Source: Flavipsychrobacter sp. (GTDB taxonomy: Bacteria; Bacteroidota; Bacteroidia; Chitinophagales; Chitinophagaceae). Taken from it: a stretch of DNA of 64,000 bases. The notes under the pieces were generated by a model. That model made no database searches. It saw only the letters and a program-made list of their open reading frames with translations, and was not told where the DNA came from. Positions 3,223 to 63,657 of the stretch are shown here, piece after piece; the stretch's first letter is position 1, and each line of letters opens with the position of its first letter. The stretch is from NCBI GenBank assembly GCA_016786615.1, contig JAEUVX010000010.1:124001-188000 (forward strand), given 5' to 3'. The translations under genes and the position numbers were made by a program.

Positions 3223-3258
3223 TGTGTTGTGATTTTAATCTGCTAAACTAATTTTTTT

Positions 3259-3303
3259 CAAAGATAAATAGACTTTGTACAATATCTATACATTTGTACA
3301 ATA
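3259..3303 (-). promoter_or_regulatory. recA promoter with duplicated TTTGTACAATA operator candidate
   Basis: Read on the minus strand, TATCTTTG (3266 to 3259) fits the Bacteroidota -7 consensus TAnnTTTG and would give a leader of about 30 bases. Just upstream, the 11-mer TTTGTACAATA occurs twice as an exact direct repeat (plus-strand 3274-3284 and 3293-3303, 19 bp apart). Each copy contains the palindrome TTGTACAA. The placement suits an SOS-type repressor site overlapping the promoter; which regulator binds is inference. Confidence 0.6.
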
Positions 3304-3801
3304 AAGTTATCCACATGTGTATGAATTGTTATTTTTTATGTTGATTATCAACTATTTATGATTTTGTATGGTTGAACATTCTTTACCTGTATTAAGGTAT
3401 TTCCATGATGTTATTATAATATGTCTGTCCACATCATTAGGAGAATGATATACATAAAATTATGGCAATAATACATTTTAAATATGTACTATTTCATCCC
3501 GACATCCTTAAAGAAGATTAAATAAACGTTAACCCAAAAGTAGGGTATGCCCAAAATATGTTTGCCTTACAAAAAGAGTGAAAGCCTTGTCGCTTAATGT
3601 TTTAGCGTATCAAAATAGTGCCTGATAATGTAGTCATCTACCAAAAACCACAGCATAATAAATTTAGTGGCTTTTCTGTACATAGTAGTTTTACACTAGA
3701 GGATATCAGAGTATCAAGTCGCGACCAAGTAATAACGATACCTGCAACCGGAAGCCGAAAAGGGTTAAAGAGTAGGCACTCATCATCTAAACAGTACAAT
3801 A
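3304..3801. other. Gene-free AT-rich intergenic region between divergent recA and the 619-residue protein gene
   Basis: About 500 bases with no convincing coding content. A short open frame at 3618-3905 runs out of frame into the following gene and has no recognisable features. The region presumably carries the promoter of the downstream gene, but no clear -7/-33 pair was identified. Confidence 0.6.
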
Positions 3802-5661
3802 ATGAAATACATCATCAGGGGCACACTACGTGGCCTGCTATGCTCAGATTGCTTTATGCATCTGGCAAAAATCAAAGTGCGCCTTTACAGCGCATCAAGC
3901 GATAATATAACGATGGTAGCATCTGCATCAGCTGCTCAAACATTCCACCAGTTATCGGACGATGAAATAAAACGCAAAAGCAAAATGCTGATTGCGGAAA
4001 CTACTACCGACGATGCGGGTAATTACAGTTTTGAACTGAGTGAAAAACAATACAAAGGCGAGGCTTATGAAATAGACATTGTGCTCGATACCAACTTCGG
4101 TAAAGAAAAACAATCGAAAGATGCAAAAGAATTCCAGTTCCACCTTACTACACGCCAGCCCGAATTCCGCTTGCGTGATAATATAGCTAAGGGAATACTG
4201 GTTGACTACTGGCGTTATGACATCATCGCTAAATGGTGGTGCCGTATTCTGCAACTGCTGGACCTGTGGGTGATATGCGGACGCGTAGTAGATTGTGATA
4301 CCAAACAACCCATACCGGGTGTAAAAGTATCGGCGTTTGACAGGGACTGGCTTCAGGACGATGCACTGGGAAGTGCTTTTACAGATGCTAATGGTTATTT
4401 CAAAATATACTATACATCTGATGCATTCAAACAAACACTGCTGAGCCCGTGGCTGAATATTGAATGGCAGGCAGGGCCTGATATCTATTTCAAAATAGAA
4501 TCATCGTCAGGTGCTGTGCTGCTTGCTGAAAGCCGCAACACAGGCCTTCGCGACGACCGTGTAAACAGGGGCAATTGCTTCTGCGTAACGCTCTGCGTGA
4601 AAGACGGTCCTACATCTACCGAGATACCATGGTTCACACACGTTGGTAATTACAGCATTACTAACGATATAAGCGCAGTAACAGGGCTTACAACACAAAA
4701 CCGCAGCTTTGCTACAGGTATAGGCTTTGGTTTCTTTGGTGCGGTGAAGCTGGTAGGCTATGCCACCAAGCGTGTGCCTACAGCACCGGGCAGCCCGTTG
4801 TACTACCGCTTCCGCTATAGTACAGATGGTACTACATGGCAGAATGTAACTGCTACACAGATAGTGAATGGCCGCCTGAAAGTGGCAACGCGTATGGTAG
4901 CATGGGGTAGTGGCACTGCGTTTCAGGATGTGGTGATAGACCCTGCACAGGCAGCATCTGCACCTGATGCACTACCGGTATTCGACCCGATGAACCCATC
5001 GACACCACCTGCCGACCATGTATTGCACCCTGATGCAAACGGATGGGTACGTGTTGACCAGCCTGCATTGGATAACGGCTTCTACGGGCCGCTGATGTGG
5101 CTGAACACAAACACCATAGCACCGGGTGGTGCAGGTGCAAGTGCGGGCGATACCGCAGGCAACCTGCCATCAACACCACGCAACGGGCATATTGTATACG
5201 TGGCATTCCAGACAACGGACAACCCTGCTACACATACCAACCCCGGCGATCCGAACTTCAACGAACAAGTGATGCAGGCACACATCTATGTAAACAACTG
5301 GGGCGAAGTAAGTTTGCTGAAACTTGAAGAACTGTTTGCCGGAAGTGGCGGATGTACACCTGTGAGTGCAAGTGCTACCGTACGCTATACTGCCGACCAT
5401 GAGCTGATAGCAGCATGGGGATTGTCGGTATCATCGGCTGCAGTGCCGGGTGGTATCACCATCAACCATTCGCTGACGGCGGGCAGCACTACACGTGGTA
5501 ATGCGCAATCCTTCAACATGGCTGCACCGGGCGAGGTAACACCTGCCTTTAATACATGGCCGTCATGTGCATACAGTCTGGTACTTACTACAAGACGCAA
5601 ACTGACCGATGGTGAAAACAACGACCACGGCAAGAACAACCAGGTAATATTCTGTAAATAA
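3802..5661 (+). CDS. Large Bacteroidota-type protein with two transthyretin/carboxypeptidase-regulatory-like segments, function unknown
   Basis: 619 residues with no signal peptide. The N-terminus (GTLRGLLCSDCF, then AKIKVRLYS) and a segment at about residues 65-90 resemble a first beta-sandwich of the kind where a modification is described as 'DDAGNYSFEL'. A second segment at about residues 158-195 (GRVVDCDTKQPIPGVKVSAFD, then FTDANGYFKIYY) is a clear carboxypeptidase-regulatory-like/transthyretin-like fold motif. The C-terminal 300 residues are rich in Gly, Ala, Thr and Pro and not recognised. I recall similar proteins beginning the same way in other Bacteroidota, which supports this start, but know no assigned role. 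A terminator follows. Confidence 0.8.
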   Translation: MKYIIRGTLRGLLCSDCFMHLAKIKVRLYSASSDNITMVASASAAQTFHQLSDDEIKRKSKMLIAETTTDDAGNYSFELSEKQYKGEAYEIDIVLDTNFGKEKQSKDAKEFQFHLTTRQPEFRLRDNIAKGILVDYWRYDIIAKWWCRILQLLDLWVICGRVVDCDTKQPIPGVKVSAFDRDWLQDDALGSAFTDANGYFKIYYTSDAFKQTLLSPWLNIEWQAGPDIYFKIESSSGAVLLAESRNTGLRDDRVNRGNCFCVTLCVKDGPTSTEIPWFTHVGNYSITNDISAVTGLTTQNRSFATGIGFGFFGAVKLVGYATKRVPTAPGSPLYYRFRYSTDGTTWQNVTATQIVNGRLKVATRMVAWGSGTAFQDVVIDPAQAASAPDALPVFDPMNPSTPPADHVLHPDANGWVRVDQPALDNGFYGPLMWLNTNTIAPGGAGASAGDTAGNLPSTPRNGHIVYVAFQTTDNPATHTNPGDPNFNEQVMQAHIYVNNWGEVSLLKLEELFAGSGGCTPVSASATVRYTADHELIAAWGLSVSSAAVPGGITINHSLTAGSTTRGNAQSFNMAAPGEVTPAFNTWPSCAYSLVLTTRRKLTDGENNDHGKNNQVIFCK

Positions 5662-5803: not shown

Positions 5804-6223
5804 TTATTGCCTGGACTTTTTATTACGCTCTCTCCATTTTTCTAAAATGCGTATTGCGGTTTCCAACTTTACGTTATTATCAAGATTTTTCAGTTCTCTC
5901 ATAGGTAACCAGTTTAATCTTAAAGTTGGGCTAAACGCATCATTAAGCTGCTTTGCCTGAGATAAATTAATTTTCATTTTTAGTGCCAATGTGCAATACA
6001 AAAACGTAGAAAATGTTCTAATGAAATAATGATAACTGAAAAAGAATATTATTAAAGCTATACCCATTATTAGAATTCCCTTATTCTCAAAAGCAGGGGT
6101 ATGTGATAATATAATAATCGTAACAGTAATTGTTAAAAGTTTAAGTACCAGATCATAAATGTGTGTCCAGATCATAGCTCGAATGATTATATTACAATTT
6201 ACTGGTTTTACAGAACAATGCAT
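5804..6223 (-). CDS. Small membrane protein of unknown function
   Basis: 139 residues. Two hydrophobic stretches at about residues 23-41 and 50-70 are likely membrane helices, followed by a basic cytoplasmic-type tail ending WRERNKKSRQ. No family recognised. It lies downstream of the TonB receptor gene on the same strand, separated by 126 bases that hold two inverted-repeat blocks, so co-transcription is unlikely. The base composition is more AT-rich than its neighbours. Confidence 0.6.
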   Translation of the reverse strand: MHCSVKPVNCNIIIRAMIWTHIYDLVLKLLTITVTIIILSHTPAFENKGILIMGIALIIFFFSYHYFIRTFSTFLYCTLALKMKINLSQAKQLNDAFSPTLRLNWLPMRELKNLDNNVKLETAIRILEKWRERNKKSRQ

Positions 6224-6238
6224 GATTTTGTTCTAACG

Positions 6239-6343
6239 TTTTCCACCGTTCCACCTGTTCCAATATTCCAGATATAGAACAAGTGGAACAGTGGAACAAA
6301 TATTCACACTTACAAACCGTGAATGTGTGAATGAGCGTGAATA
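6239..6343. repeat. 8-bp-phased inverted word block (GTTCCAC type and GTGAAT type)
   Basis: TTCC starts at 6241, 6249, 6258 and 6266 (steps 8, 9, 8). The inverse GAAC follows at 6277, 6286 and 6294 (steps 9, 8), forming a long imperfect hairpin. A second hairpin with another word follows directly: TTCACAC at 6303 pairs with GTGAAT at 6319, 6327 and 6337 (steps 8, 10). The two hairpins share layout and register but not sequence. They lie between two genes on the minus strand. Confidence 0.8.
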
Positions 6344-6349
6344 AGAGTA

Positions 6350-8362
6350 TTACTTCATCGTGTACCTGATGCCGAGGAAACCACGTATGCCCTGCAATGA
6401 TGCATAGTTGTAACTCGGGTCGAAGGTATAGCCCTGCGGATTATCGAGCGGGTCGTTTACTTTTTTGTCAAACGGGTCGTGCGCACGCAGTATCGGGTAC
6501 TTCGGCACAAAGTTGAACAGGTTTTTTACACCGCCATATACTTCTATTTGCTTGCCTATACGCTTGGTAAGCTGCACATTGGCTATACAAAACCATGGCG
6601 AGTATTCGGGGCGGAAATCGTTGGGCAGCAACGGCAGTCGCATAGGTCCGTTCCATTTACCTGTCAGGTCTATCATAAAGCCACGCGGCAGTGTGTATGT
6701 AACAGCGAAGTTGCCACTCCATGTTGGTGCCTGTATCTGTATGGTTTTAAACAAGCCGGTGCCTGTGTCTTCCATCTGGTACACATTCATATAGGTAACA
6801 CCAGCCATCACACGTATCGGGAAGCTGAAATTGCCCTCAACATTCAGCGATATGCCCTGCGATATGGCATGGCCTTTCAGGTTGTCATATATAATCTTGT
6901 TAGGGTCGGTGTCAAAGTCGCCATTTATCTTGTTGGTAAAATAAGAGTAGAAAGCAGTAATATCTATTACAGCAAATCCACGTCCTATTACCTGTTTTGT
7001 GTTATAGTTCAGGTTGGTGTTGTAAGAGCGTTCGGGATTCAGTGCTTCTTTTATCACCACCTGGCGTGCGCCTGTCAGTGCTGCATGGTCTTCGGTAAAG
7101 AGGTTCACTACACGATAGCCTGTACCCACGCTGGCACGTATTGCATTGCTTGTGTTGGGTGCCCATTTGTAGGCAAGGCGTGGCGAGTGTATGCTGCCGT
7201 GGTTTTTATCGTAGTCGTAACGATAGCCAAGCAGTATTTTATGTTTCTCATGCACAGCCCATTCGTCTTGTATAAATATACCGGGCAGGGGAGTAATGGC
7301 AGGAGCGTTGCTCTTACCATCAGCCGATAGGGTAGCAGGTGTGTTATCATCGTACACTGTATAACGATATGATGCACCGAGTAACAGGCTGTGTTTATCA
7401 TTCACACGCTTGTCCCAATACGCCTGTATAAAGGCTACCTGCTGGTTGGCATTATAAGGTGTAGTACCGTAGTAGCTATCCTGAAAGTGGTAGTTGTACG
7501 AATACTGTGTTATTATCTTTTCGCGTACAGGCAGTTGGTACATACCTATCAGCTCTATGCGTTTGGTAGTAATGCTCTCGCCATAGATGCTGTCACTACC
7601 CCTGTAGTCGGGTGTCCAGTTCATTTGTCCGCCCCAGCGGTCTTCAGCCACGTAACGTGCTGCCAGCGAAGCCAGTTTATAGTCTTTGCGCAGCAGGCTC
7701 CATTTATTGAATATCGATACACGGTTTTGCAGGGTGACATCTGTAAAGCCATCTTTATTATTATCTATGGGATTGCTGTAGTTGAAGTAGCTGACACCGA
7801 GCATACTATTCAGCTTACCGAGCTTGAATTTGGTTGATATATCGGCATTATACTCCTGCCAGTTTGTAGCAAATACATCGGCACTCAATAGCGGTGCGTT
7901 GTTGGGGGTGCGGGTAATTACATTGATGATACCACCCATAGCCTCCGAACCATACAGCGATGATGCTGGGCCTTTAACCACTTCTATACGGTCAACCATA
8001 CTATTGGGTATGCCATTCAATCCATATACGGTAGATAATGCACTGACAATAGGCATGCCATCTATCAGTATCATGGTATATGGCCCTTCCATACCATTGA
8101 TGTGTATATCGCCCGTATTACAGATGTTACAGTTCAGCTGTGGTTGTACGCCATTCAGCATACCTACCGCCTCAAAAAGGCTTGGTGTGGGGTTCTTTTT
8201 AAAGAATTTCGCTGTGATAATCTCTACAGGTATAGGGCTGTCTTTACGGCTCATTAATTTCATAGTGCCTGTTACCACTACATCCTCCAACGTGTCTTTA
8301 CTGCTTTGTGCAGCTACATTCAGGCTGCTTAATATCAATATCGAGAGTAATAATTGTTTCAT
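6350..8362 (-). CDS. TonB-dependent outer-membrane receptor (BtuB/CirA-like)
   Basis: 670-residue receptor that imports a scarce ligand across the outer membrane using TonB energy. The signal peptide (to about AAQ at residue 20) is followed by a TonB-box-like EDVVVTG, a plug domain with LIDGMPI and RIEVVKGPASSLYGSEAMGGIINVIT at about residues 95-150, and then a beta-barrel ending in the typical LGIRYTMK. Cys78 and Cys81 in the plug (NCNICNT) are unusual. There is no N-terminal CarboxypepD_reg domain, so it is not SusC-like. The -7 promoter element is only 7 bases before the ATG and a DtxR-like palindrome sits in the promoter, suggesting control by iron or manganese. The ligand is not evident. 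Confidence 0.95.
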   Translation of the reverse strand: MKQLLLSILILSSLNVAAQSSKDTLEDVVVTGTMKLMSRKDSPIPVEIITAKFFKKNPTPSLFEAVGMLNGVQPQLNCNICNTGDIHINGMEGPYTMILIDGMPIVSALSTVYGLNGIPNSMVDRIEVVKGPASSLYGSEAMGGIINVITRTPNNAPLLSADVFATNWQEYNADISTKFKLGKLNSMLGVSYFNYSNPIDNNKDGFTDVTLQNRVSIFNKWSLLRKDYKLASLAARYVAEDRWGGQMNWTPDYRGSDSIYGESITTKRIELIGMYQLPVREKIITQYSYNYHFQDSYYGTTPYNANQQVAFIQAYWDKRVNDKHSLLLGASYRYTVYDDNTPATLSADGKSNAPAITPLPGIFIQDEWAVHEKHKILLGYRYDYDKNHGSIHSPRLAYKWAPNTSNAIRASVGTGYRVVNLFTEDHAALTGARQVVIKEALNPERSYNTNLNYNTKQVIGRGFAVIDITAFYSYFTNKINGDFDTDPNKIIYDNLKGHAISQGISLNVEGNFSFPIRVMAGVTYMNVYQMEDTGTGLFKTIQIQAPTWSGNFAVTYTLPRGFMIDLTGKWNGPMRLPLLPNDFRPEYSPWFCIANVQLTKRIGKQIEVYGGVKNLFNFVPKYPILRAHDPFDKKVNDPLDNPQGYTFDPSYNYASLQGIRGFLGIRYTMK

Positions 8363-8501: not shown

Positions 8502-8534
8502 TTTGAATGTATATATAGGCTAAGGCTACATTCG
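8502..8534 (+). promoter_or_regulatory. Promoter of the T9SS repeat protein gene
   Basis: TTTG at 8502-8505 and TACATTCG at 8527-8534 (one mismatch to TAnnTTTG), separated by 21 bases. Transcription from here would start at about 8540, downstream of the ATG codons at 8546 and earlier in frame, which favours initiation at 8582. Confidence 0.5.
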
Positions 8535-8581
8535 TGCAGTATCAAATGAAAAAGCGATCAATCTCAAAACAAAGTACAAAC

Positions 8582-11500
8582 ATGAAACAGTATTTAATCC
8601 TTATTATGGTAACGCTTGGCTCAGTAGGCCATGTGTTTGCGCAAAACTGGAACGTACCACAACAACTGGATAATGGTAGTGGTGCGATGGTGGGCGAATC
8701 ATCATCATTATTGGTGGTAAACGGCAATCCTGCTATGTCTTACTTCGATGAGACGAATGGTAACCTCAAATATGTTCGCGCAACAAACAGTGTGGGCGAT
8801 GCATGGGGTACACCAATTGTGGTACAGTCTACCAACTTCGTAGGTGAGTTTACATCTATGGCTATTGTCAGCGGTTACCCTGCTATATCGTATTACGACC
8901 AGACAAACGGTAACCTGATGTACGTTCGTGCTACAAACGCTGATGGCAGCTCTTGGGGTACACCTGTTACGGTTACATCTACAAACAATATAGGCCAGTA
9001 CACATCGCTGGTAGTTGTCAGCAGCAACCCTGCTATTGCATACTACGATGTTACAAACGGCGATTTGAAATACGTACGTGCTACGAATACAACAGGTAGT
9101 ACATGGGGTACACCTGTTACGGTTACATCATCGGGTACGGTGGGGCAGTATGCATCTATGCAGATTGTAAACGGCAACCCTGCCATAGCATATTACGATG
9201 CTACTAACGGCGATATGGAATATGTACGTGCTACCAATACTACTGGTGGTACATGGGGTACACCAGTTGTTATACAATCTACTAATAACGTAGGGCAATA
9301 TTGTTCTATGGTAGTAGTAAACGGCAACCCTGCTGTTTCTTATTACGATGCTACCAGCTTCGACCTGAAATTTGCACGTGGCAATGATGCAAGCGGCAGC
9401 ACATGGGGTACACCCGTAACGCTGGATGCAACCGGTGACGTAGGGCAATACACATCATTGAAAATAGTAGATAACAACCCTGCCATAGCATATTTTGATG
9501 TGACCAATGGTGACCTGAAATATGTACGCGCTATAAACACTTCAGGTACTACATGGGGTTCACCTGCAAGGTTTGAAACCACCGGTGATATAGGCGAGTA
9601 TGCTTGTCTGCAGGCTATAAACGGTGCACCAGCCATATCATATCACGATGATACGAATGACGACCTGCGTTACGTAAATCTGTGTAATACATGGACAGGT
9701 GCAAGCAGCACCGACTGGCATACGGCTAACAACTGGTCTTTTGCAAACGTGCCTATCAGTACAGAAGAGGTGCATATAGTAGATAAAACCAACGACCCGA
9801 TAGTATCAGCTGACGCTACAGTTGCTACTATGAAAATATACAGCGGCGGCAGGGTTACATTAAGTGGTTCAACAACAGACTTTACGATATCAGGCGCTTT
9901 CGATAATGCCGGTATCATCAGCATAGCAAACGGTAACCTTGCTTTAGGTGGTGCTGTAAGCGGTGCTGGTACTATCACAGGTGGCAGCACATCAAACCTT
10001 AATGTGAATGGTGCAGCAGGTACATTGAACTTTACAAGCGGTTCTCGCAAATTACTGACGCTGGCATTAGGCAGCTCGGGTACTGCAACACTCGGTACTG
10101 CTCTTGACATAGAGCCTACCGGTGTGGTAACTGTTACAAGCGGTGGTGTACTTACATCAAACGGCAACCTCACACTGAAATCTACATCAGCAGGTACTGC
10201 ACGTGTAGCACAAGGTTCAAGCTCGGGCAACTACATTATAGGTAATGTAACAACTGAAACATATATAGCTGGAGGCCGCAGGGCATTCCGTTTCATAACA
10301 CACCCGTTCTCAAGCTCGATAGGTTTGAATCAGTTGACAGACGATATAGATATCACAGGTACAGGTGGCGGAACAAATGGTTTTGACTACCAACCCGGTA
10401 ACCCTGCATCTGCATTCTGGTACAATCCTGCAACAGGTAATGGCTCTACCGTAAATGATATAGGCTGGACAGCATTTACAAGTACAAACGGCAGTGGTGC
10501 AAACAGTTGGGATAGATGTGAATCAGTACGCGTATTGGTACGTGGCTCGAAAGGTCAGGGACTGTATGCAGGTACATACACACCCGATGCTGTAACACTT
10601 GATATGACAGGTCCGTTGAACCAAGGTAGCGTAACAGTGCCGCTTACAAAAGGAAGTAATACACCATTCGTTTTGGTAGGTAACCCTTTCATGAGCCCTA
10701 TTAATATGCTGCTGACTACCAACACAAGTTTAGGTGCCAATCTGATTGTATGGAACTCTAACCAAGGTACTAGAGGTGGTTATACAAGTATTCCTATACT
10801 GAATGGTATCATCATACCGGCAGGTGCATCGTTTGTAACAACTGTATTATTCAGTGGTTCAATCACCTTCCCTGAATCTTGTAAAACTTCATCTGCAGGT
10901 TTAGGTTTATTGAAAACAACAGCTGCAAAGCCTCGTCAGATAGAATTGAAGATAGAAGACAGCACTATTTTCTGGGATAAACTGCTTGTATTGTTTGACG
11001 ATACAGCCAAAGCATCTTATGATTATGGCGATGGCCTGAAAATGGCAAACCCCGATATCAGTATCTATACTTTTGGTAGCGATGATTCTTTATTAGCTGT
11101 AGATGCCCGTAAACATACAGACAGTCAGGTAATAAGGATGGGATTATATACGCCGTATAAGAAGAAGTATAAGTTTGTATTGGGAGATTATGATATGGCT
11201 CTTGGTACAAGGATTTATCTGCACGATAAATACATGAATATAAAAGAAGAAATCGTTCCGGGTTTTGAATATTGGTTTGAAGTAACAAATGATGTTGCAA
11301 CAACCGGCGAAAATCGTTTTGAACTGATAATGGAGGGCAAAGCAACCAAGCCAACAAATCCTACGAACGTATCGCTTCCTGTAGCTAAGATACAGGAAGC
11401 AGCTAAACTGGAAGTAAAACTTGCTCCTAATCCTGCTAATACTACAACTGTATTACATTACAATGGTGCAGCCAACGAAACAATGAAGATAGCTGTAACA

Positions 11501-11653
11501 AGCATCCTCGGTACAGTAGTGTCTGTTACGGAAATAAAAGCTAAAACAAGTGGTGAAGTAGTATTACCTGTACAAGCATTACCTGCAGGTATGTACCTGG
11601 TAGAGGTGAGCAATGGCAAAGAAACTGTAGTTGAAAAACTGATTAAACAATAG
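8582..11653 (+). CDS. Secreted T9SS cargo protein with seven 50-residue repeats and a type A sorting domain
   Basis: The chosen ATG (8582) gives 1023 residues starting with a clear signal peptide MKQYLILIMVTLGSVGHVFA. From about residue 47 to 395 there are seven tandem repeats of about 50 residues, each with the pattern NPAxxYYDxTNGDLKYVRATN followed by WGTPV. Seven repeats of this size suggest a seven-bladed beta-propeller (inference). A middle beta-rich region starting CNTWTGASSTDWHTANNW follows. The last 75 residues (LAPNPANTT..., LPAGMYLVEVSNG, EKLIKQ) form a T9SS type A C-terminal sorting domain, so the protein should be exported and attached to or released from the cell surface. Ligand or substrate unknown. 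Confidence 0.93.
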   Translation: MKQYLILIMVTLGSVGHVFAQNWNVPQQLDNGSGAMVGESSSLLVVNGNPAMSYFDETNGNLKYVRATNSVGDAWGTPIVVQSTNFVGEFTSMAIVSGYPAISYYDQTNGNLMYVRATNADGSSWGTPVTVTSTNNIGQYTSLVVVSSNPAIAYYDVTNGDLKYVRATNTTGSTWGTPVTVTSSGTVGQYASMQIVNGNPAIAYYDATNGDMEYVRATNTTGGTWGTPVVIQSTNNVGQYCSMVVVNGNPAVSYYDATSFDLKFARGNDASGSTWGTPVTLDATGDVGQYTSLKIVDNNPAIAYFDVTNGDLKYVRAINTSGTTWGSPARFETTGDIGEYACLQAINGAPAISYHDDTNDDLRYVNLCNTWTGASSTDWHTANNWSFANVPISTEEVHIVDKTNDPIVSADATVATMKIYSGGRVTLSGSTTDFTISGAFDNAGIISIANGNLALGGAVSGAGTITGGSTSNLNVNGAAGTLNFTSGSRKLLTLALGSSGTATLGTALDIEPTGVVTVTSGGVLTSNGNLTLKSTSAGTARVAQGSSSGNYIIGNVTTETYIAGGRRAFRFITHPFSSSIGLNQLTDDIDITGTGGGTNGFDYQPGNPASAFWYNPATGNGSTVNDIGWTAFTSTNGSGANSWDRCESVRVLVRGSKGQGLYAGTYTPDAVTLDMTGPLNQGSVTVPLTKGSNTPFVLVGNPFMSPINMLLTTNTSLGANLIVWNSNQGTRGGYTSIPILNGIIIPAGASFVTTVLFSGSITFPESCKTSSAGLGLLKTTAAKPRQIELKIEDSTIFWDKLLVLFDDTAKASYDYGDGLKMANPDISIYTFGSDDSLLAVDARKHTDSQVIRMGLYTPYKKKYKFVLGDYDMALGTRIYLHDKYMNIKEEIVPGFEYWFEVTNDVATTGENRFELIMEGKATKPTNPTNVSLPVAKIQEAAKLEVKLAPNPANTTTVLHYNGAANETMKIAVTSILGTVVSVTEIKAKTSGEVVLPVQALPAGMYLVEVSNGKETVVEKLIKQ

Positions 11654-14483: not shown

Positions 14484-15617
14484 TTATACCAATCCTGTAA
14501 GCTTGGCAACCACCGTGTCTACTTCTTCTTTGGTATTATGTCTGCAAAAAGAGAAGCGTATCGGTACTATGTTGGCTGCATTTTCCGGATACAGTTCTTT
14601 AATAACATGGCTGATGCTGTTGGCCCCACTACTGCATGCGCTGCCGCCACTTACACAGATGCCTGCCATATCCAGATTGAATAGCATCATATCAGACTTA
14701 TCCGTCAGCGGGAAGCCAACGTTCAATACCGTGTACAGGCTGTTGCCTTCAGCATCGCCATTCAGCAGTATGTTGGGGAATGTGCTGCGCAGTTGCGCTA
14801 TCATGTATTGTTTCAGCTCCTGTATATATTGGCTGTCCTGCTCGTAGCGTTCGGTAGCTATTTCCAGTGCTTTGGCATAGCCTACAATACCATACAGGTT
14901 TTCTGTACCTGCACGCATATTGCGTTCCTGTGCACCACCGTTTAGCAATGGTTGTATTTTAACGTCTTCGTTTACGTAGAGCATACCCACACCCTTAGGC
15001 CCGTGAAACTTGTGGCCTGCCGAGCTGGCAAAGTGTATATAAATATCGTGCAGGTTGATGGGGTAGTGCCCGATGGTCTGCACCATATCGCAATGGAAGA
15101 TGGCATTGTATTTACGACACAGTTCGCCCACGGCTTTTACATCCAGCAGGTTGCCTATCTCGTTATTGGCATGCATCAGGGTTACGAGTGCTTTGTCGTC
15201 ACTTTCGGCAAGCAGATTTTCAAGGCTTTGCAGGTCTATATACCCGTTGGGTGTCAGCTTTATAAAGCTAAGTGCTGCTTGTCCTGTTTTGTGCAGGTAT
15301 TCAACCGTATGCAGCGTAGCGTGGTGTTCTATGGGCGATGATATGATGCGTTTGCAACCAAGGTCGCGCACAGAAGCATGTATAGAAGTATTGCTGCTTT
15401 CCGTACCGCCCGATGTAAAGAATATCTCTCCCGGGTTTGCATGTAGTATTTTAGCTACAGACTTGCGGGCATTCTCTATAGCCATTTTTGTTTCTCTGCC
15501 ATAAGAATAAATAGCAGACGGGTTGCCAAACTTCTCTGTCATGTATGGCATCATTGCATTCAACACGTCCTGGTCCATTGCAGTTGTAGCTGCATTGTCA
15601 AAATATATCCGCTCCAT
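14484..15617 (-). CDS. Cysteine desulfurase (NifS/IscS family)
   Basis: PLP enzyme that takes sulfur from cysteine for Fe-S clusters or thio-cofactors. From the chosen ATG (15617, protein start MERIYFDNAATT) it is 377 residues. Motifs: FFTSGGTESSN, HANNEIGN, the Schiff-base lysine in SAGHKFHGPKG, RAGTEN, and the active-site loop cysteine in SGGSACSSG. Residues in this loop resemble the short-loop class-II-like NifS variants. An upstream ATG at 15629 would lie at or before the transcription start predicted from TAAATTTG (15634 to 15627), so 15617 is preferred. No iscU or suf genes are adjacent; the gene is monocistronic. Confidence 0.95.
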   Translation of the reverse strand: MERIYFDNAATTAMDQDVLNAMMPYMTEKFGNPSAIYSYGRETKMAIENARKSVAKILHANPGEIFFTSGGTESSNTSIHASVRDLGCKRIISSPIEHHATLHTVEYLHKTGQAALSFIKLTPNGYIDLQSLENLLAESDDKALVTLMHANNEIGNLLDVKAVGELCRKYNAIFHCDMVQTIGHYPINLHDIYIHFASSAGHKFHGPKGVGMLYVNEDVKIQPLLNGGAQERNMRAGTENLYGIVGYAKALEIATERYEQDSQYIQELKQYMIAQLRSTFPNILLNGDAEGNSLYTVLNVGFPLTDKSDMMLFNLDMAGICVSGGSACSSGANSISHVIKELYPENAANIVPIRFSFCRHNTKEEVDTVVAKLTGLV

Positions 15618-15626
15618 AATCGGGTG

Positions 15627-15634
15627 CAAATTTA
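15627..15634 (-). promoter_or_regulatory. -7 promoter element of the cysteine desulfurase gene
   Basis: TAAATTTG on the minus strand, nine bases before the chosen ATG. It sets the gene start and implies a leader of only a few bases. Confidence 0.65.
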
Positions 15635-35034: not shown

Positions 35035-35420
35035 TTGTTTTGCAGATTCATGTTATAAAGAATAGCTGCGGGGTTTTCGTAGTTGTCGCTCTGGTCTTCG
35101 TGTGTTTCGTCCAGGCATTTAAAATCTTTTTCTAACAGAAGGTACAGTTTTTTTCCGTCACCGAGGTCCATGTTATGCTCATAACCCACTTTTTCGGTAC
35201 GTGCCCATTCATCTGCTTTTGCAGCAGGCATAAATATGGTAAGTGTGCTATCGGTAAAGGTAGCATACATATTATCGGCATTGCTGCGCTGCATGGCATA
35301 CGTAAGTGTTGCCGTACCAAATTCCGTTGTCTCTTCCACAAGCCCTGTTTCGGCAAATTTATCCATGTCACTTTTGGTGACACGCATCCGTACAGAGTTG
35401 CCTTTTATTCTCATTTTCAT
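35031..35420 (-). CDS. Conserved small protein of the fdhD-ydeP operon (DUF7009-like)
   Basis: 129 residues, soluble, no signal peptide. It begins MKMRIKGNSVRMRVTKSDMDKF, a run of beta-strands suggesting binding rather than catalysis, and contains LTIFMPAAKADEWA and LLLEKDFKCLD. I recall a small family found next to fdhD in Bacteroidota (DUF7009), but the name is from memory. Four-base overlaps on both sides (ATGA) show tight translational coupling with FdhD and the YdeP-type enzyme, so a role in maturation or cofactor insertion is likely. Confidence 0.8.
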   Translation of the reverse strand: MKMRIKGNSVRMRVTKSDMDKFAETGLVEETTEFGTATLTYAMQRSNADNMYATFTDSTLTIFMPAAKADEWARTEKVGYEHNMDLGDGKKLYLLLEKDFKCLDETHEDQSDNYENPAAILYNMNLQNK

Positions 35421-36238
35421 ATAGTAACTCTTTGATTGCCAGTATAAATATTAAAGCGTTCGCCACGCAAAAAACCGATGAGCGTCATGCCAAACTCTGC
35501 AGCCGTTTGTGCTGCAAGGCTCGATGGTGCGCCTACTGCCGTCACTATTTTAATGCCTGCCATAGCCGCCTTCTGTATCAGCTCGAAGCTGGCACGCCCG
35601 CTGAGCAGCAGTATATGTTTATCGAGTGGTACTATGTTTTGTTCCAGTGCTGCACCTATCAGTTTGTCCAGCGCATTGTGCCTGCCCACATCTTCGCGTA
35701 GTAAAATTAAATTACCTGCTTCATCAAACAAAGCAGAAGCATGCAGCCCGCCTGTAGTATCAAACACTGCCTGTTGCTTGCGCAGCATATCGGGTAGCTT
35801 GTAGATAAGGGTAGATGACACCTGTAGGGTATCTGCACCGCCTGCCACATCGCACACCGTCTTTATAGCATTGATAGACGACTTGCCGCACACACCACAA
35901 CTGGATGTAGTATAAAAATGCCTTTCCAGCTTGGCAAGGTCCAGTTCCACATCTTCCTTAAGCACTACCTGCACTATATTATCGGGGATGGTAAAAGCGC
36001 CCTTAACATCGCTGTATTGTTTGATAATGCCCTCGGTAAACAGAAAGCCTATTGCCAGTTCGGTATCGGCACCGGGGGTGCGCATGGTTACCGAGAGGCT
36101 TTTCTGAATACGTGCATCTGCCTTGCCGTAGTTGATGCGTATCTCCAATGGTTCTTCTGTTGCCAGTACATCATCTACGTCGGCAACCGTATCGGCAGTT
36201 ACCTTTTTGATGGCTATATGCGAGACAGCTACATTCAT
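35417..36238 (-). CDS. fdhD: FdhD sulfurtransferase, formate dehydrogenase accessory protein
   Basis: 273 residues. FdhD passes sulfur from a cysteine desulfurase to molybdenum in formate-dehydrogenase-type enzymes. The essential pair C114-GV-C117 (SSCGVCG) is present, with the RTPGADTELAIGFLFTEGI segment at 53-72, REDVGRHNALDKLIG and LSGRASFELIQKAAMAGI in the C-terminal domain. First gene of the operon. Its likely sulfur source could be the desulfurase at 14484-15617 (inference). Upstream of the ATG lies the largest phased repeat array of the window. Confidence 0.96.
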   Translation of the reverse strand: MNVAVSHIAIKKVTADTVADVDDVLATEEPLEIRINYGKADARIQKSLSVTMRTPGADTELAIGFLFTEGIIKQYSDVKGAFTIPDNIVQVVLKEDVELDLAKLERHFYTTSSCGVCGKSSINAIKTVCDVAGGADTLQVSSTLIYKLPDMLRKQQAVFDTTGGLHASALFDEAGNLILLREDVGRHNALDKLIGAALEQNIVPLDKHILLLSGRASFELIQKAAMAGIKIVTAVGAPSSLAAQTAAEFGMTLIGFLRGERFNIYTGNQRVTI

Positions 36239-36257
36239 TACTACGAATTTACGATGT

Positions 36258-36476
36258 TTAGTTGATAGGTTGACCGGTTGATTAGGGTGTTCGACTGTTC
36301 AGGGGTGTCCCATTTGTCCCACTGTCCCACTGTCCCATTTGGGACAGTGGGACAAAAACAGGGGTTTAATGTATTATAAGTTTTTAGTGTTCATGTTCCG
36401 AACAGTGAACACCTGAACAGTTTCTAAGATTCTCATTTTCTAGAATTCTAGAATTCCAAGATTCTAGAAAGTTGGA
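36258..36476. repeat. Composite 8-bp-phased inverted word array between fdhD and the MORN/TonB gene
   Basis: Words start every 8 bp. GTTGAT-type at 36261, 36269 and 36277. GTTC at 36289 and 36297. GTCCC at 36307, 36316, 36324 and 36332, then inverted GGGAC at 36341 and 36349, making a perfect 15-bp stem with a two-base loop. GTTC at 36389 and 36395 is followed by GAAC at 36400, 36407 and 36415. TTC at 36438, 36446, 36454 and 36462 forms TTCTAGAA units. Both flanking genes point away from this region, so these hairpins are not terminators. Confidence 0.9.
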
Positions 36477-36604
36477 ATAGTGTGTTTTTTGATAACAATT
36501 ATGAAGTGAATAGAAAATAAGAACATTGTCAGATTAATTGTTGTAGTATCCCTTATTTATTCAATACTTAATATATTTTCACACCATTTTTTGAAATTGA
36601 GACT

Positions 36605-37867
36605 ATGTTAAGAAGTACCCTATTAATAACATTAACTATAATAAGTAATGTTATATACGCACAAACTGCTGTTAAAATTGATACTATTTATTATGATATT
36701 AAATGGAAAATAGTTCCTGAAAAAGATAAAGCAGTTTATTACCGAATAGCAGAGAAACTAGCCGATAAAAACTATAAAGTAACTGATTACTTTATGGATG
36801 GACTATTGCAAATGACTGGTACTGTTACTGACCCGCTATGTGATGGTGATGATTGTGATAATGGACCTTTTGTATACTATTTTAATAATGGTGTAATAGA
36901 GTGTGCGGGTAATTCTGTAGCAGGAAACCGAGTTGGTAATTGGAATTGTAATTATATAAATGGCAAAAAATCAAGCAATACGAATTACAAAAATGGATTG
37001 TTGGATGGTAAGGCAATATTTTATGATTCCCTGACAGGTAGAAAAGAATCTGAAGGCATACATGTTGCAGATGAAAAACATGGTAAATGGCATTACTATG
37101 ATACGAATGGAAAAGTGTCGAGAATTGTTGAATATAATAATGGGAATTATCATGGTAAGTGTATTGTTTATAACACAAATACAGGTTATCCAATAGCTGA
37201 AGGTGTATTTAAAGATGATAATAAAGAAGGTAAATGGACTTATTATTATAATAAGCCTGATAAGAAAATTAGCCTCATTGAAAATTATAAAAAGGGCTTA
37301 TTGGATGGAGAGGCTATAAAGTATGATTCTATAGGGAATGAATTACTACATTCTAATTATAAAGATAATCTGAAGTCTGGTGCATGGAAATATTATTATT
37401 ATGGTTCCGATAAAGTATGGTTGTCATACTACTTTACAAAAGATTCTCTCGATAAAGAATTGATATCATTCTATCCGTCAGGGAAATTAAAAAGAAAAGA
37501 AGTATATGATAATGGTAAGATTCTATCATCTAAATGCTATGCTGAAAATGGTGACGAAATGGAGTATTACCCGATATTAACCGGTGCGCAATTTGAAGGA
37601 GATGTAATGACTTATGTTGGCAATACATTGGTGTACCCTAAAGATGCTAAGCAGCAAAAGATAGAAGGTAAGGTTTTGGTGAGTTTTGCAGTTAATGAAA
37701 GTGGTATTGTAGAAGAGCCTAAGGTTATTAAAAGTGTTTCTAAATCATTAGATGCCGAAGCATTGAGAATAGTTGAACAAATGCCTCCGTGGCAGCCTGC
37801 CCGTATTGATGGGCAACCCTATAAAAGTGTGCAAGAGCTACCAGTAGTTTTTTGGATACAGGACTAA
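36605..37867 (+). CDS. MORN-repeat protein with C-terminal TonB domain
   Basis: 420 residues, signal peptide to about YAQ at residue 20. Residues 85-320 hold about eight MORN-like (YwqK-type) repeats with the pattern DGKaxxYxxxGxxxxxxxYxxGxxxGxW. The last 90 residues (YPKDAKQQKIEGKVLVSFAVNESG, LDAEALRIVEQMPPWQPARIDG) are a TonB C-terminal domain. Such MORN-TonB fusions are common in Bacteroidota, and their partners are unknown; the domain may link an exported repeat scaffold to the envelope. The gene is clearly more AT-rich than its neighbours and is bounded on both sides by phased repeat arrays, hinting at transfer or relaxed selection. Confidence 0.88.
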   Translation: MLRSTLLITLTIISNVIYAQTAVKIDTIYYDIKWKIVPEKDKAVYYRIAEKLADKNYKVTDYFMDGLLQMTGTVTDPLCDGDDCDNGPFVYYFNNGVIECAGNSVAGNRVGNWNCNYINGKKSSNTNYKNGLLDGKAIFYDSLTGRKESEGIHVADEKHGKWHYYDTNGKVSRIVEYNNGNYHGKCIVYNTNTGYPIAEGVFKDDNKEGKWTYYYNKPDKKISLIENYKKGLLDGEAIKYDSIGNELLHSNYKDNLKSGAWKYYYYGSDKVWLSYYFTKDSLDKELISFYPSGKLKRKEVYDNGKILSSKCYAENGDEMEYYPILTGAQFEGDVMTYVGNTLVYPKDAKQQKIEGKVLVSFAVNESGIVEEPKVIKSVSKSLDAEALRIVEQMPPWQPARIDGQPYKSVQELPVVFWIQD

Positions 37868-37874
37868 GTCAAAA

Positions 37875-37970
37875 TATTCTCAATTCCAGAATTCTAGAAA
37901 GTTAGAATCTTGGAATTTTCTGGAATTTGTTCGGGTGTTCAGGTGTTCGGAATCCGAACAGGTGAACAGT
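37875..37970. repeat. 8-bp-phased inverted word array after the MORN/TonB gene (TTCTAGAA and GTTCAG types)
   Basis: TTC at 37877, 37884 and 37892; GAA at 37897, 37905, 37913 and 37923. GTTC follows at 37929, 37937 and 37945, with inverted GAAC at 37956 and 37964, closing a near-perfect hairpin centred near 37952. The word types are the same two that occur in the array on the other side of the MORN gene (36389-36476), but in the opposite order. Confidence 0.9.
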
Positions 37971-38007
37971 CTACGCGAGACCAGATTATTCAGCTACGCT
38001 CCATGAG

Positions 38008-38040
38008 AAAAGTTGCTTCGTGCCTCGCAATGACGCGATT
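38008..38040. repeat. Fragment of a dispersed TTGC...TCGCAATGACG-type repeat
   Basis: The bases around TTGCTTCGTGCCTCGCAA then TGACG resemble the CGTCATTGCGAGG...GAAGCAAT element that recurs between genes in many unrelated bacterial genomes. Only one partial copy is visible here, sandwiched between two phased arrays. The assignment rests on memory of that motif. Confidence 0.5.
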
Positions 38041-38048
38041 ACGTGTTT

Positions 38049-38163
38049 TTGTCCCACTGTCCCACTGTCCCAAATGGGACACTTGGACAGTGGGACACTT
38101 GGGACACTCCTGAACACAAACTGTCCCGCTGTACGAACTCGTACACCTGTACACTCGTACACC
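38049..38163. repeat. 8-bp-phased inverted word array (GTCCCACT type then GTACAC type)
   Basis: GTCCC at 38051, 38059 and 38067; inverted GGGAC at 38076, 38092 and 38101, with a degenerate GGAC at 38085. Then GAAC at 38112, GTCCC at 38123, and GTAC at 38131, 38141, 38149 and 38157. Within one array the core changes from GTCCC to GTAC without losing the 8-bp step. The first half is nearly identical to 36307-36353. Confidence 0.9.
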
Positions 38164-38238
38164 CCGATATCATTTAAAGATAGCAGTTGTAATAGACGTA
38201 CCTTTAATAAGCAGTTATTAAACAAGCTGTGCAACATC

Positions 38239-38430
38239 ATGTTTACACCCAAGCATATACCCGAAGTGCCACAGCAACCCCACGAACCATTACAACAGCC
38301 TAATGAACCGTCACAACAACCTTCTCCGCCGGAGATAGTACCTAATACAGAACCGCAACAAGTGCCCGGCAAGCCCGAAATGCCTCCTGCACCTGCGCCA
38401 ACCAATCCACCAAACCCCGGTGGTATTTAG
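38239..38430 (+). CDS. Short proline/glutamine-rich protein (tentative)
   Basis: 63 residues from ATG 38239, starting MFTPKHIPEVPQQPHEP. About one third is proline, with repeated QQP/EP units and a C-terminal PTNPPNPGGI. No signal peptide or membrane segment. A longer in-frame extension to 38020 would translate the phased repeat array and is rejected. A weak -7-like TACCTTTA lies near 38198. Sequences of this kind act as spacers or ligands of SH3-like domains, but there is no family match and the reading could be fortuitous. Confidence 0.45.
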   Translation: MFTPKHIPEVPQQPHEPLQQPNEPSQQPSPPEIVPNTEPQQVPGKPEMPPAPAPTNPPNPGGI

Positions 38431-38453
38431 TATAGTGTTTGCCATATAGCAAA

Positions 38454-38556
38454 CTGTTCAGGTGTTCGAACACTGAACATAATGTAATATTGTTATTGAA
38501 ATTGTCCGACTGTCCCAAATGGGACACTTGGACACTTGGGACACCCTGAACACCTA
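38454..38556. repeat. 8-bp-phased inverted word array (GTTCAG and GTCCC types)
   Basis: GTTC at 38456 and 38464, inverted GAAC at 38468 and 38475. Then GTCC at 38504 and 38512, inverted GGGAC/GGAC at 38521, 38530 and 38538, and GAAC at 38548. The order GTTC block then GTCCC block repeats that of 36289-36353. Confidence 0.88.
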
Positions 38557-38631
38557 CAGGATTTTTTTCTTTCCCTGTACTTTGATAATCAGCAACTTAT
38601 ACTACTGCAAGAATATTTTATCAAAAATTAT

Positions 38632-38679
38632 TTTGTGCAATCAATTGGTTGCGCTTATATTTGCAACTGAACGGTTGCG
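38632..38679 (+). promoter_or_regulatory. ArsR-SRPBCC operon promoter with inverted-repeat operator
   Basis: -33 TTTG (38632-38635), 20-base spacer, -7 TATATTTG (38656-38663). Immediately after it an inverted repeat GCAAC-TGAACG-GTTGC (38663-38667 and 38674-38678) covers the transcription start, and GGTTGCG also occurs in the spacer at 38647-38653. This fits autorepression by the ArsR protein encoded next. Confidence 0.65.
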
Positions 38680-38710
38680 GAATGTATTAAATACCCATAC
38701 CGTATAGTAT

Positions 38711-39031
38711 ATGAGAAGAGATGTTTTTCAGGCAATAGCAGACCCCACACGCAGGGCCATCATAGCACTGATAGCCATGCAGGCAATGACGCCCAATTCG
38801 CTGGCAGAACATTTCCACACATCGAGGCAGGCAATATCCAAACACTTGCAGATACTGGTGGAGTGCGAGGTAGCCATACCCAAACAGCAGGGCAGGGAAA
38901 TATATTATGAAATAGAAATGAAGAAGATGAAAGAAATAGACAAGTGGCTGGAACAGTTTCGCAAAATATGGGAAGACAGGTTCAACCAGCTTGACGAAGT
39001 ATTAATAACCTTAAAAAAACATAAACGATGA
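38711..39031 (+). CDS. ArsR-family winged-helix repressor
   Basis: 106 residues. Begins [21 protein letters not shown], the usual opening of the ArsR subgroup paired with SRPBCC proteins, with the recognition helix in [20 protein letters not shown] and the wing [11 protein letters not shown]. There is no metal-binding ELCVC motif, so it probably does not sense metals. Its stop overlaps the next start by four bases (ATGA). Likely represses its own operon through the inverted repeat over the promoter. Confidence 0.93.
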
Positions 39032-63601: not shown

Positions 63602-63657
63602 GTTTTGTTTTATCTGTTTCAGGTGTTGCAACTTGAAACATGAAACAGATGAAACAA
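63602..63657. repeat. 8-bp-phased inverted word block, GTTTCA type
   Basis: GTTT at 63607 and GTTTC at 63616, GTTG at 63625, then inverted GAAAC at 63635, 63642 and 63651 (steps 7-9). The block lies upstream of the spermidine-synthase-like gene, with no gene end nearby on the plus strand. Confidence 0.75.

Follow-up and report, generated by a model that had tools for sequence, protein, structure and literature searches.

The repeat block at 36258-36476 of the window (the whole 64-kb stretch of DNA analysed here) is best explained, with a probability of about 0.7, as a cluster of iterons belonging to a family of mobile-element initiators, copies of which have spread as the ends of cargo cassettes. 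Each array would comprise some six short iterons as binding sites, roughly three per direction, to be read by the C-terminal helix-turn-helix (HTH) of a helicase-like initiator of the AAA_25-HTH or DUF3987-HTH type, and each initiator would have a private word determined by its recognition helix, with an array of that word at the end of its own gene. Such an array is most likely the origin of the element; a hexamer could place six HTHs on six words and thereby load the helicase, after which a DUF6371 Zn-ribbon protein would prime. In this Chitinophagaceae genus, copies of the arrays appear to have spread without an initiator and to bracket single cargo genes, often anti-phage ones. The block would then form the left-hand array cluster of a cassette with a TonB_C/MORN gene as cargo and its right cluster at 37882-38163, and cargo would turn over while the arrays stay, probably via recombination between like arrays after initiator-driven copying.

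Organization of the array cluster and its counterparts in the window

Base identity at lag 8 in the block is 0.493, compared with a mean of 0.260 (sd 0.030) in dinucleotide shuffles, none of 2000 reaching the observed value, while lags 3-6 give 0.18-0.23, lag 9 gives 0.333 and lag 16 gives 0.369. The 8-bp spacing described in an earlier note on this DNA is therefore real, although the register in the arrays is 8-9 bp and not the fixed 8 bp it had assumed. Two further claims of that note were confirmed: a perfect stem is formed by TGTCCCACTGTCCCA at 36323-36337 and its complement at 36340-36354 (15 nt, 100%, 2-nt loop), and the genes on either side, FdhD (35417-36238, minus strand) and the TonB_C/MORN-like gene (36605-37867, plus strand), are transcribed away from the block.

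The left-most part of the block consists of GTTGAT words (36261-36282, plus strand; tandem repeat of period 8), which are found at the same place in two other species of the genus (G002 and G006) and for which no reader was found. They are followed by TGTTC words (36289-36301, plus strand), by reading a shortened version of an array present in full here in G002 and G006, and by a TGTCCCA array (36306-36354; repeat and inverted-repeat searches, detector) with four direct and two inverted words that contains the perfect 15-bp stem. A TGTTC array (36388-36420; sequence reading, inverted-repeat search) and a TTCTAGAA-type array without a reader found (36422-36478; 25-nt arms, 76%) complete the cluster. 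The TGTCCCA word also follows AAA_25-HTH genes with the helix SKST, SKTT or GKST, and TGTTC is the word of the DUF3987-HTH initiators L200-L202 in sister species.

Beyond the cargo gene (36605-37867; Pfam TonB_C at 7.3e-18, the MORN-like repeats matching MORN_2 below the cut-off), these arrays recur in mirror order: a TTCTAGAA-type array at 37882-37927 (inverted-repeat search, detector) mirrors 36422-36478, a TGTTC array at 37928-37968 (tandem-repeat search, by reading) mirrors 36388-36420, and a TGTCCCA array at 38050-38106 (repeat searches, detector) mirrors 36306-36354. Further to the right are a TGTAC array at 38130-38163, highly similar to one in G009 (reading, repeats and species comparison), and a compound TGTTC plus TGTCC array at 38454-38556, inverted relative to the left block. 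Elsewhere in the window, a TTCCA array and an ATTCAC array lie at 6241-6342 (repeat searches, detector), between 5804-6223 and a TonB receptor gene at 6350-8362, and a TGTTTCA array is located near the window end (63615-63656; inverted repeat, detector), whose word GTTTCA also follows the AAA_25-HTH genes L174 and L182.

A strict array detector, requiring repeated words 7-10 bp apart and one turn of orientation, found six elements in the window, as against 0 to 2 per shuffle in 20 shuffles of the whole window. Five lie wholly within the 7.0 kb of gaps, for which 200 shuffles gave a mean of 0.075 and a maximum of 1; the sixth (63615-63656) extends across an ORF start, and no element was detected wholly inside the 60 ORFs (56.6 kb). 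Five of the seven blocks listed in the earlier note were flagged (6239-6343, 36258-36476, 37875-37970, 38049-38163 and 63602-63657); as for the rest, 38454-38556 is an inverted repeat of 18 nt at 83%, under the strict threshold, and the GTTGAT/AATCAAC block downstream of recA (2131-2228) has only a 10-nt, 90% inverted repeat and probably represents a different class. Long GTTGAT/AATCAAC arrays beside core genes were also observed at L161 (12117-12171), L159 (8998-9048) and L146 (2461-2534), with neither cargo nor initiator seen; those of L161 and L159 are at the same place in two species. No reader for GTTGAT or TTCTAGAA-type arrays was seen at six places examined, or in the data examined as a whole. 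A search of the window against Rfam returned no match.

Putative initiator genes and the array at their 3' end

The genus was represented by this genome (G000) and 14 further species. Using an array-adjacent AAA_25 ATPase with a C-terminal HTH as query, 20 homologs were found in 10 of the 15 genomes. The detector placed an array within 1.5 kb of 19 of these genes (shuffles gave one element in all), and by reading an array starts no more than about 12 bp past the stop codon in all 20 (L173 included). A second array of the same word, usually beyond one co-directional cargo gene, is present 0.6-2.6 kb away at 11 of the 20 loci, for which short flanking stretches were examined. The words at these genes include TGTCCC, TGTCCA, GCCCA, GCTCC, GCTCA, GTTCA, GTTCG, GTTTCA, ATTCAC and TTCCA, and six words per stop-codon array is the count in 17 of 35 loci (range 4-9, the 5-mer counted being chosen by eye). 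In viral contigs, AAA_25 relatives with an HTH have an array at the stop codon in 14 of 15 cases (detector; L241 included), and relatives without an HTH in 0 of 11, these eleven coming from large phage contigs and looking mutually related.

The array-after-gene rule also holds for DUF3987 proteins that end in an HTH. Distant DUF3987-HTH genes (L205, L211, L212, L213 and L215) are followed by two-word palindromes, which may be a reduced version of this rule. At the genes of longer AAA_25 proteins (L225, L227, L232 and L234), arrays are in the vicinity of the stop codon instead of directly at it, and among distant AAA_25 proteins L230 is without an array and L231 has one of another kind. The predicted structure of a viral-contig AAA_25-HTH member (mean pLDDT 82.4) matches the fold of DnaB, KaiC and T7 gp4, and sequence profiles recover T7 gp4 at E 0.009.

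In this genome, the assembly of which is 91% complete, there was no AAA_25-HTH match and a single DUF3987-HTH match, with the word TGTCC and on another contig than the window; no readers for TGTTC, TGTAC, TTCCA or GTTTCA were accordingly found in it. Since no initiator gene lies beside the arrays of the window, these are called origin-like copies and not origins.

Covariation of recognition helix and word

Comparison of 34 loci (561 pairs) revealed that the word correlates with the 11-residue recognition helix (r = 0.467) and not with the ATPase body (r = -0.013); the helix-word partial correlation was 0.507, and none of 5000 permutations was as high. The same word was found at the locus with the nearest helix in 21 of 28 cases, as against 9 of 28 for the locus with the nearest body. 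Excluded from the correlation were duplicates or near-duplicates (L223, L235, L243), loci whose array is not at the stop codon (L225, L227, L232, L234), distant loci with the array absent or of another kind (L230, L231), fragments or proteins with no HTH end (L228, L236, L237, L240), and L226, whose array is too degenerate to score. In a test set of 14 further HTH loci from viral contigs, the nearest helix predicted 11 of 14 words (1.6 expected), the effective number of loci being below 14 because L258 and L259 are close to the training locus L245, and L246 and L247 to L218/L222. Among the misses, L254 and L257 have other words and L255 has no array. The helix ISLGAVNKYL accompanies GTTCAC at L183, L219, L221, L248, L251 and L252, SHMKV accompanies TGTAACA, and GKST accompanies GTCCC, also in Bacteroidales elements, the same helix having the same word across families.

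A particularly simple pair is provided by the DUF3987-HTH proteins of this genome (L199) and of G006 (L200), which are 98.8% identical outside the last 45 columns; in the HTH, 16 of 20 residues match and 4 differ, and the arrays are TGTCC and TGTTC, respectively. Replacement of words, by which the earlier note had supposed the repeats to mutate, holds in this sense, namely that helix and word of orthologous initiators differ jointly.

Taken together, the sequence data strongly support the view that the word is set by the recognition helix of the HTH and not by the ATPase body, and that the words are bound by the HTH-ATPase; it is by covariation that the C-terminal HTH appears to be specific for the array repeats. 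Of the hypotheses put forward in the earlier note, binding arrays for an 8-bp-phased protein is thus well supported, as the word tracks the recognition helix of the adjacent HTH-ATPase. With about a dozen words, these loci form a natural data set for reading an HTH recognition helix against its DNA word, and orthologs that are almost identical but unlike in both helix and word offer a simple case of a protein-DNA recognition code.

In the longer AAA_25 proteins, which belong to another genus, one helix residue was observed to vary (V-H-R, V-N-R, V-A-R), and the words near their genes are, by reading, GGAAC, GGGAC and GGTAC. A one-residue, one-base code is possible in these proteins.

Cargo genes between the arrays and their turnover

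At the locus of the block, this genome, G002, G006 and G009 have the arrays and the downstream sequence in common and four different cargos, namely the TonB_C/MORN protein in G000, a 429-codon ORF without a Pfam hit in G002, an ApeA-type HEPN defence protein in G006, and a 204-codon ORF without a Pfam hit in G009. In a comparison of six proteins, the best similarity among the four was weak (G000 versus G002, 28% over 75 residues, E 0.002). This is one of three loci at which cargo differs between common flanks. At L023/L032, whose flanks are orthologs of window 3802-5661 and 14484-15629, the same words surround a GldM-like gene in G002 and a SIR2-like gene in G006. At locus M, upstream of an M16 peptidase gene, the flanks of G006 and G007 are alike (2.0 kb at 83% and 3.9 kb at 81%) and GCTCCA arrays are present in both with unrelated genes between them, and G000 and G009 have GCTCCA plus ATTTCA arrays round other genes. 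No array was detected at this locus in G002, G004, G005, G011, G012 and G013, in which both flanks align; a degenerate GCTCC remnant could be read in G004. In part, the same words do recur at the same positions in sister species, an outcome that the earlier note had named as refuting if the sites were ordinary regulatory ones, but these arrays are not such sites.

Cargo genes adjacent to AAA_25-HTH genes matched PADLOC models in 11 of 19 cases at E <= 1e-5, compared with 2 of 10 larger genes of the window, the types being OLD/AriA, AbiU, ThsA, Fic, bSEFIR, SIR2 and TIR. Four of the 11 matches are weak, at about 1e-6 to 1e-5 (L170, L175, L176 and L184); the cargo of L185 was left out of the set, and those of L173, L177 and L183 are cut by the locus edge. 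Eight of the 19 had no match at 1e-5, and some of these (L179, L181, L182 and L186) may be unrecognised defence genes. The cargo in the window, the TonB_C/MORN gene, was not matched to a defence family. The arrays provide a DNA signature of loci where single genes, several of them for defence, differ between sister species, and could be used to find new defence genes.

Pairs of same-word arrays round a cargo are mutual inverted repeats in 24 of 33 cases and direct repeats in 9, and the cassette ends are therefore not uniform. In 29 cluster pairs, the order of common words is mostly mirrored (19 mirror versus 7 direct comparisons, TGTCCC and TGTCCA having been treated as one word at the two loci that supply 6 of the 7), and the innermost words agree in 19 of 29. 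The cassette of the window did not score as mirrored, its weaker arrays being under the detector threshold; its mirror order was established by reading. Such inverted, mirrored ends would fit a transposase-like or recombinase activity that moves the cassettes with the arrays as terminal inverted repeats, replication being secondary. This is the strongest competing explanation, but we consider it doubtful, as reading of the translations next to the cassettes of the genus revealed neither a transposase nor an integrase, and no target-site duplication could be established at locus M. A relaxase or mobilization gene was likewise not recognised in these translations.

If the arrays are instead iterons of the HTH-ATPase initiators, recombination between like arrays, aided by initiator-driven copying, is the mode of cassette movement that we favour, albeit tentatively, and helper-less cassettes could also spread by ordinary recombination. 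The idea of a mobile palindromic element, raised in the earlier note, gains partial support here, in that the arrays belong to mobile-element replication modules and bracket species-variable genes. A broader proposal, also tentative, is that these loci represent a class of minimal mobile cassette, in which origin arrays keyed to an initiator by a helix code double as cassette ends, an initiator under SOS-like control copies the gene between them, and exchange of the copies takes place at docking sites marked by arrays, which would amount to a store of swappable anti-phage and accessory genes.

Origins, operators or terminators

The arrays might alternatively be operators through which the HTH-ATPase controls transcription of its own gene and of the cargo, with no role in replication. 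The helix-word evidence fits this explanation equally well and the arrays do adjoin initiator and cargo genes; it is nevertheless improbable, because the arrays are placed at the gene end and not at the promoter, and because the ATPase has a helicase-like fold and adjoins DUF6371 and mobilization genes in mobile elements. Moreover, the sequence found upstream of 7 of 20 AAA_25-HTH genes and 6 of 7 DUF3987-HTH genes is a different one, the recA-like TTGTACA-n-TTGTRCA; of 43 genes in the window, recA alone is preceded by it (window 3223-3350). It is a candidate SOS operator in this group, and its position suggests SOS-like control of the initiators.

A role as transcription terminators or mRNA 3'-end hairpins is far less probable still. 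The arrays often begin a few bases past stop codons and form stems, but none of three terminator-like hits in a simple scan of 36200-38720 fell on an array, the block at 36258-36476 sits between divergent genes, the array in mobile elements fills or overlaps a short gap between co-directional genes, and the helix-word correspondence would be left unexplained. Least credible is the copying process suggested in the earlier note, in which strand or template switching spreads words in 8-bp steps without any reader: words do occur in both orientations within one array, but it is largely refuted by the correspondence of the word with the recognition helix in the adjacent gene, for which such a process gives no reason. 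Nor is it needed, as by eye the words match between arms and the spacers often do not, a pattern more in keeping with selection acting on the words than with whole arms being copied.

The array at the end of an initiator gene is read as a likely replication origin, by analogy with the systems considered below.

Relationship to Bacteroidales mobile elements and other known systems

In Bacteroidales mobilizable elements, the AAA ATPase is 41-43% identical to the AAA_25-HTH of the genus, the first array extends over the 3' end of the AAA gene or lies just after it, and a DUF6371/PG0870-type gene comes next. An excisionase is also among the genes of the array-bearing elements, and we take these excisionase/AAA/DUF6371 elements to resemble Tn4555. 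An integrase and a mobilization protein are listed in two of three annotated records (CP103138.1 and NZ_CP032820.1; not in CP103131.1), and integrase, mobilization gene and replication module occur together in the same two and partly in L241. The Bacteroidales elements therefore resemble the genus loci in having a homologous AAA ATPase and the same kind of array at the gene 3' end, whereas they carry one or two arrays per element and the genus has dispersed arrays bracketing single cargo genes. The array is a candidate origin for mobilizable elements of Bacteroidota; according to a 2017 review, no study had addressed how mobilizable elements replicate once excised (PMC5704250).

Integrons share several features with the genus cassettes, having single-gene cargo, a hairpin-forming site after each gene, a helper gene alongside and turnover of cargo. 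In contrast, the cargo in the genus is bracketed on both sides, no integrase was recognised in the translations read beside the cassettes, and it is a helicase-HTH that would read the sites.

The initiators of the genus and the Rep protein of SaPI presumably belong to different helicase families, judging in part from Pfam. According to the description of the work of Ubeda et al. (2007) in PMC7581432, the C-terminal domain of SaPI Rep recognises short iterons directly downstream of its own gene, so that the two systems are alike in having an initiator helicase, C-terminal recognition and iterons just after the initiator gene. The genus differs in that its sites form an 8-9 bp two-way array with a dozen or so words and a readable helix-word relation, and in that the arrays recur as ends of cargo cassettes. 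The same paper describes SCCmec Cch2 as a helicase with a C-terminal dsDNA-binding part, 5-nt iterons downstream, a primase partner and a putative origin (PMC7581432); with a domain of the Primase_Cterm/D5 type and three iterons, all direct, it differs from the genus, which has AAA_25 or DUF3987 and about six words in both orientations. RepA of the PLE satellite binds semi-palindromic iterons, and repeats of 8-9 bp are given for two related RepA_N plasmids (PMC7145576); here the likeness lies in an element-encoded initiator with iterons and the difference in a RepA_N fold instead of a predicted helicase.

Repeats directly downstream of the initiator gene, a hallmark of initiator-iteron origins, were thus found for 20 of 20 genus AAA_25-HTH genes and 14 of 15 viral-contig ones, and by analogy the layout matches origins of the SaPI/SCCmec type in kind. 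The remark in the earlier note that its author knew of no described element with such a layout is to be qualified in this respect; as for this particular arrangement, no published account was found in the open-access literature, subscription papers being outside the scope of the search.

REP/BIME repeats (GTAG and CGTC types) are small dispersed intergenic palindromes arranged in mosaics (PMC3733652). The arrays are likewise dispersed intergenic palindromes and are often adjoined by a CGTC-type repeat, but no REP tag was seen in them and one array has a different word from another. Next to many arrays there is a further dispersed repeat, CGTCATTGCGAGGaACGAAGCAATCTC (window 38018-38045, L026 near 3890, L033 and others); it may be one of the CGTC-type REP repeats (PMC3733652).

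Distribution in the genome, the genus and the order

The genome-wide test of lag-8 excess envisaged in the earlier note was uninformative when applied to all intergenic DNA, as the autocorrelation signal is too diluted to tell genomes apart, and a seeded detection of direct plus inverted words was used in its place. In 297 kb sampled from this genome, seven elements were flagged and none in shuffles, five of them within one 20-kb stretch; the arrays are not genome-wide in this genome. In the sample of near relatives, lags 4-20 showed peaks at lags 8 and 9, with 41 and 27 seed regions at the 7-mer level and none in shuffles at these lags. No element was found in 180 kb sampled from five more distant members of the genus, three of which have arrays elsewhere (loci L006, L011 and L012). 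Samples of other genera (359 kb) gave six elements versus one shuffled, of other types by reading.

This genome and 9 of the 14 others of the genus contain the pattern TGTCCCA-NN-TGTCCCA, as does 1 of 21 genomes from elsewhere in the family; none of 23 further genomes of the order has it, and its reversed control gave one match, in G014. The sole same-family match outside the genus (L005) is by reading not an array. AAA_25-HTH proteins are uncommon, occurring in 15 of 298 genomes of the order and 13 of 395 of the phylum. The spread of arrays is uneven, with arrays bracketing genes for example at L023, L032, L025, L031, L006, L011, L115 and L119. In addition, Y1 transposases (Y1_Tnp) are present in 10 of the 15 genus genomes, and the window contains a 150-bp tandem repeat of 2.7 copies (8954-9354), which lies inside a 1039-aa ORF (8534-11653).
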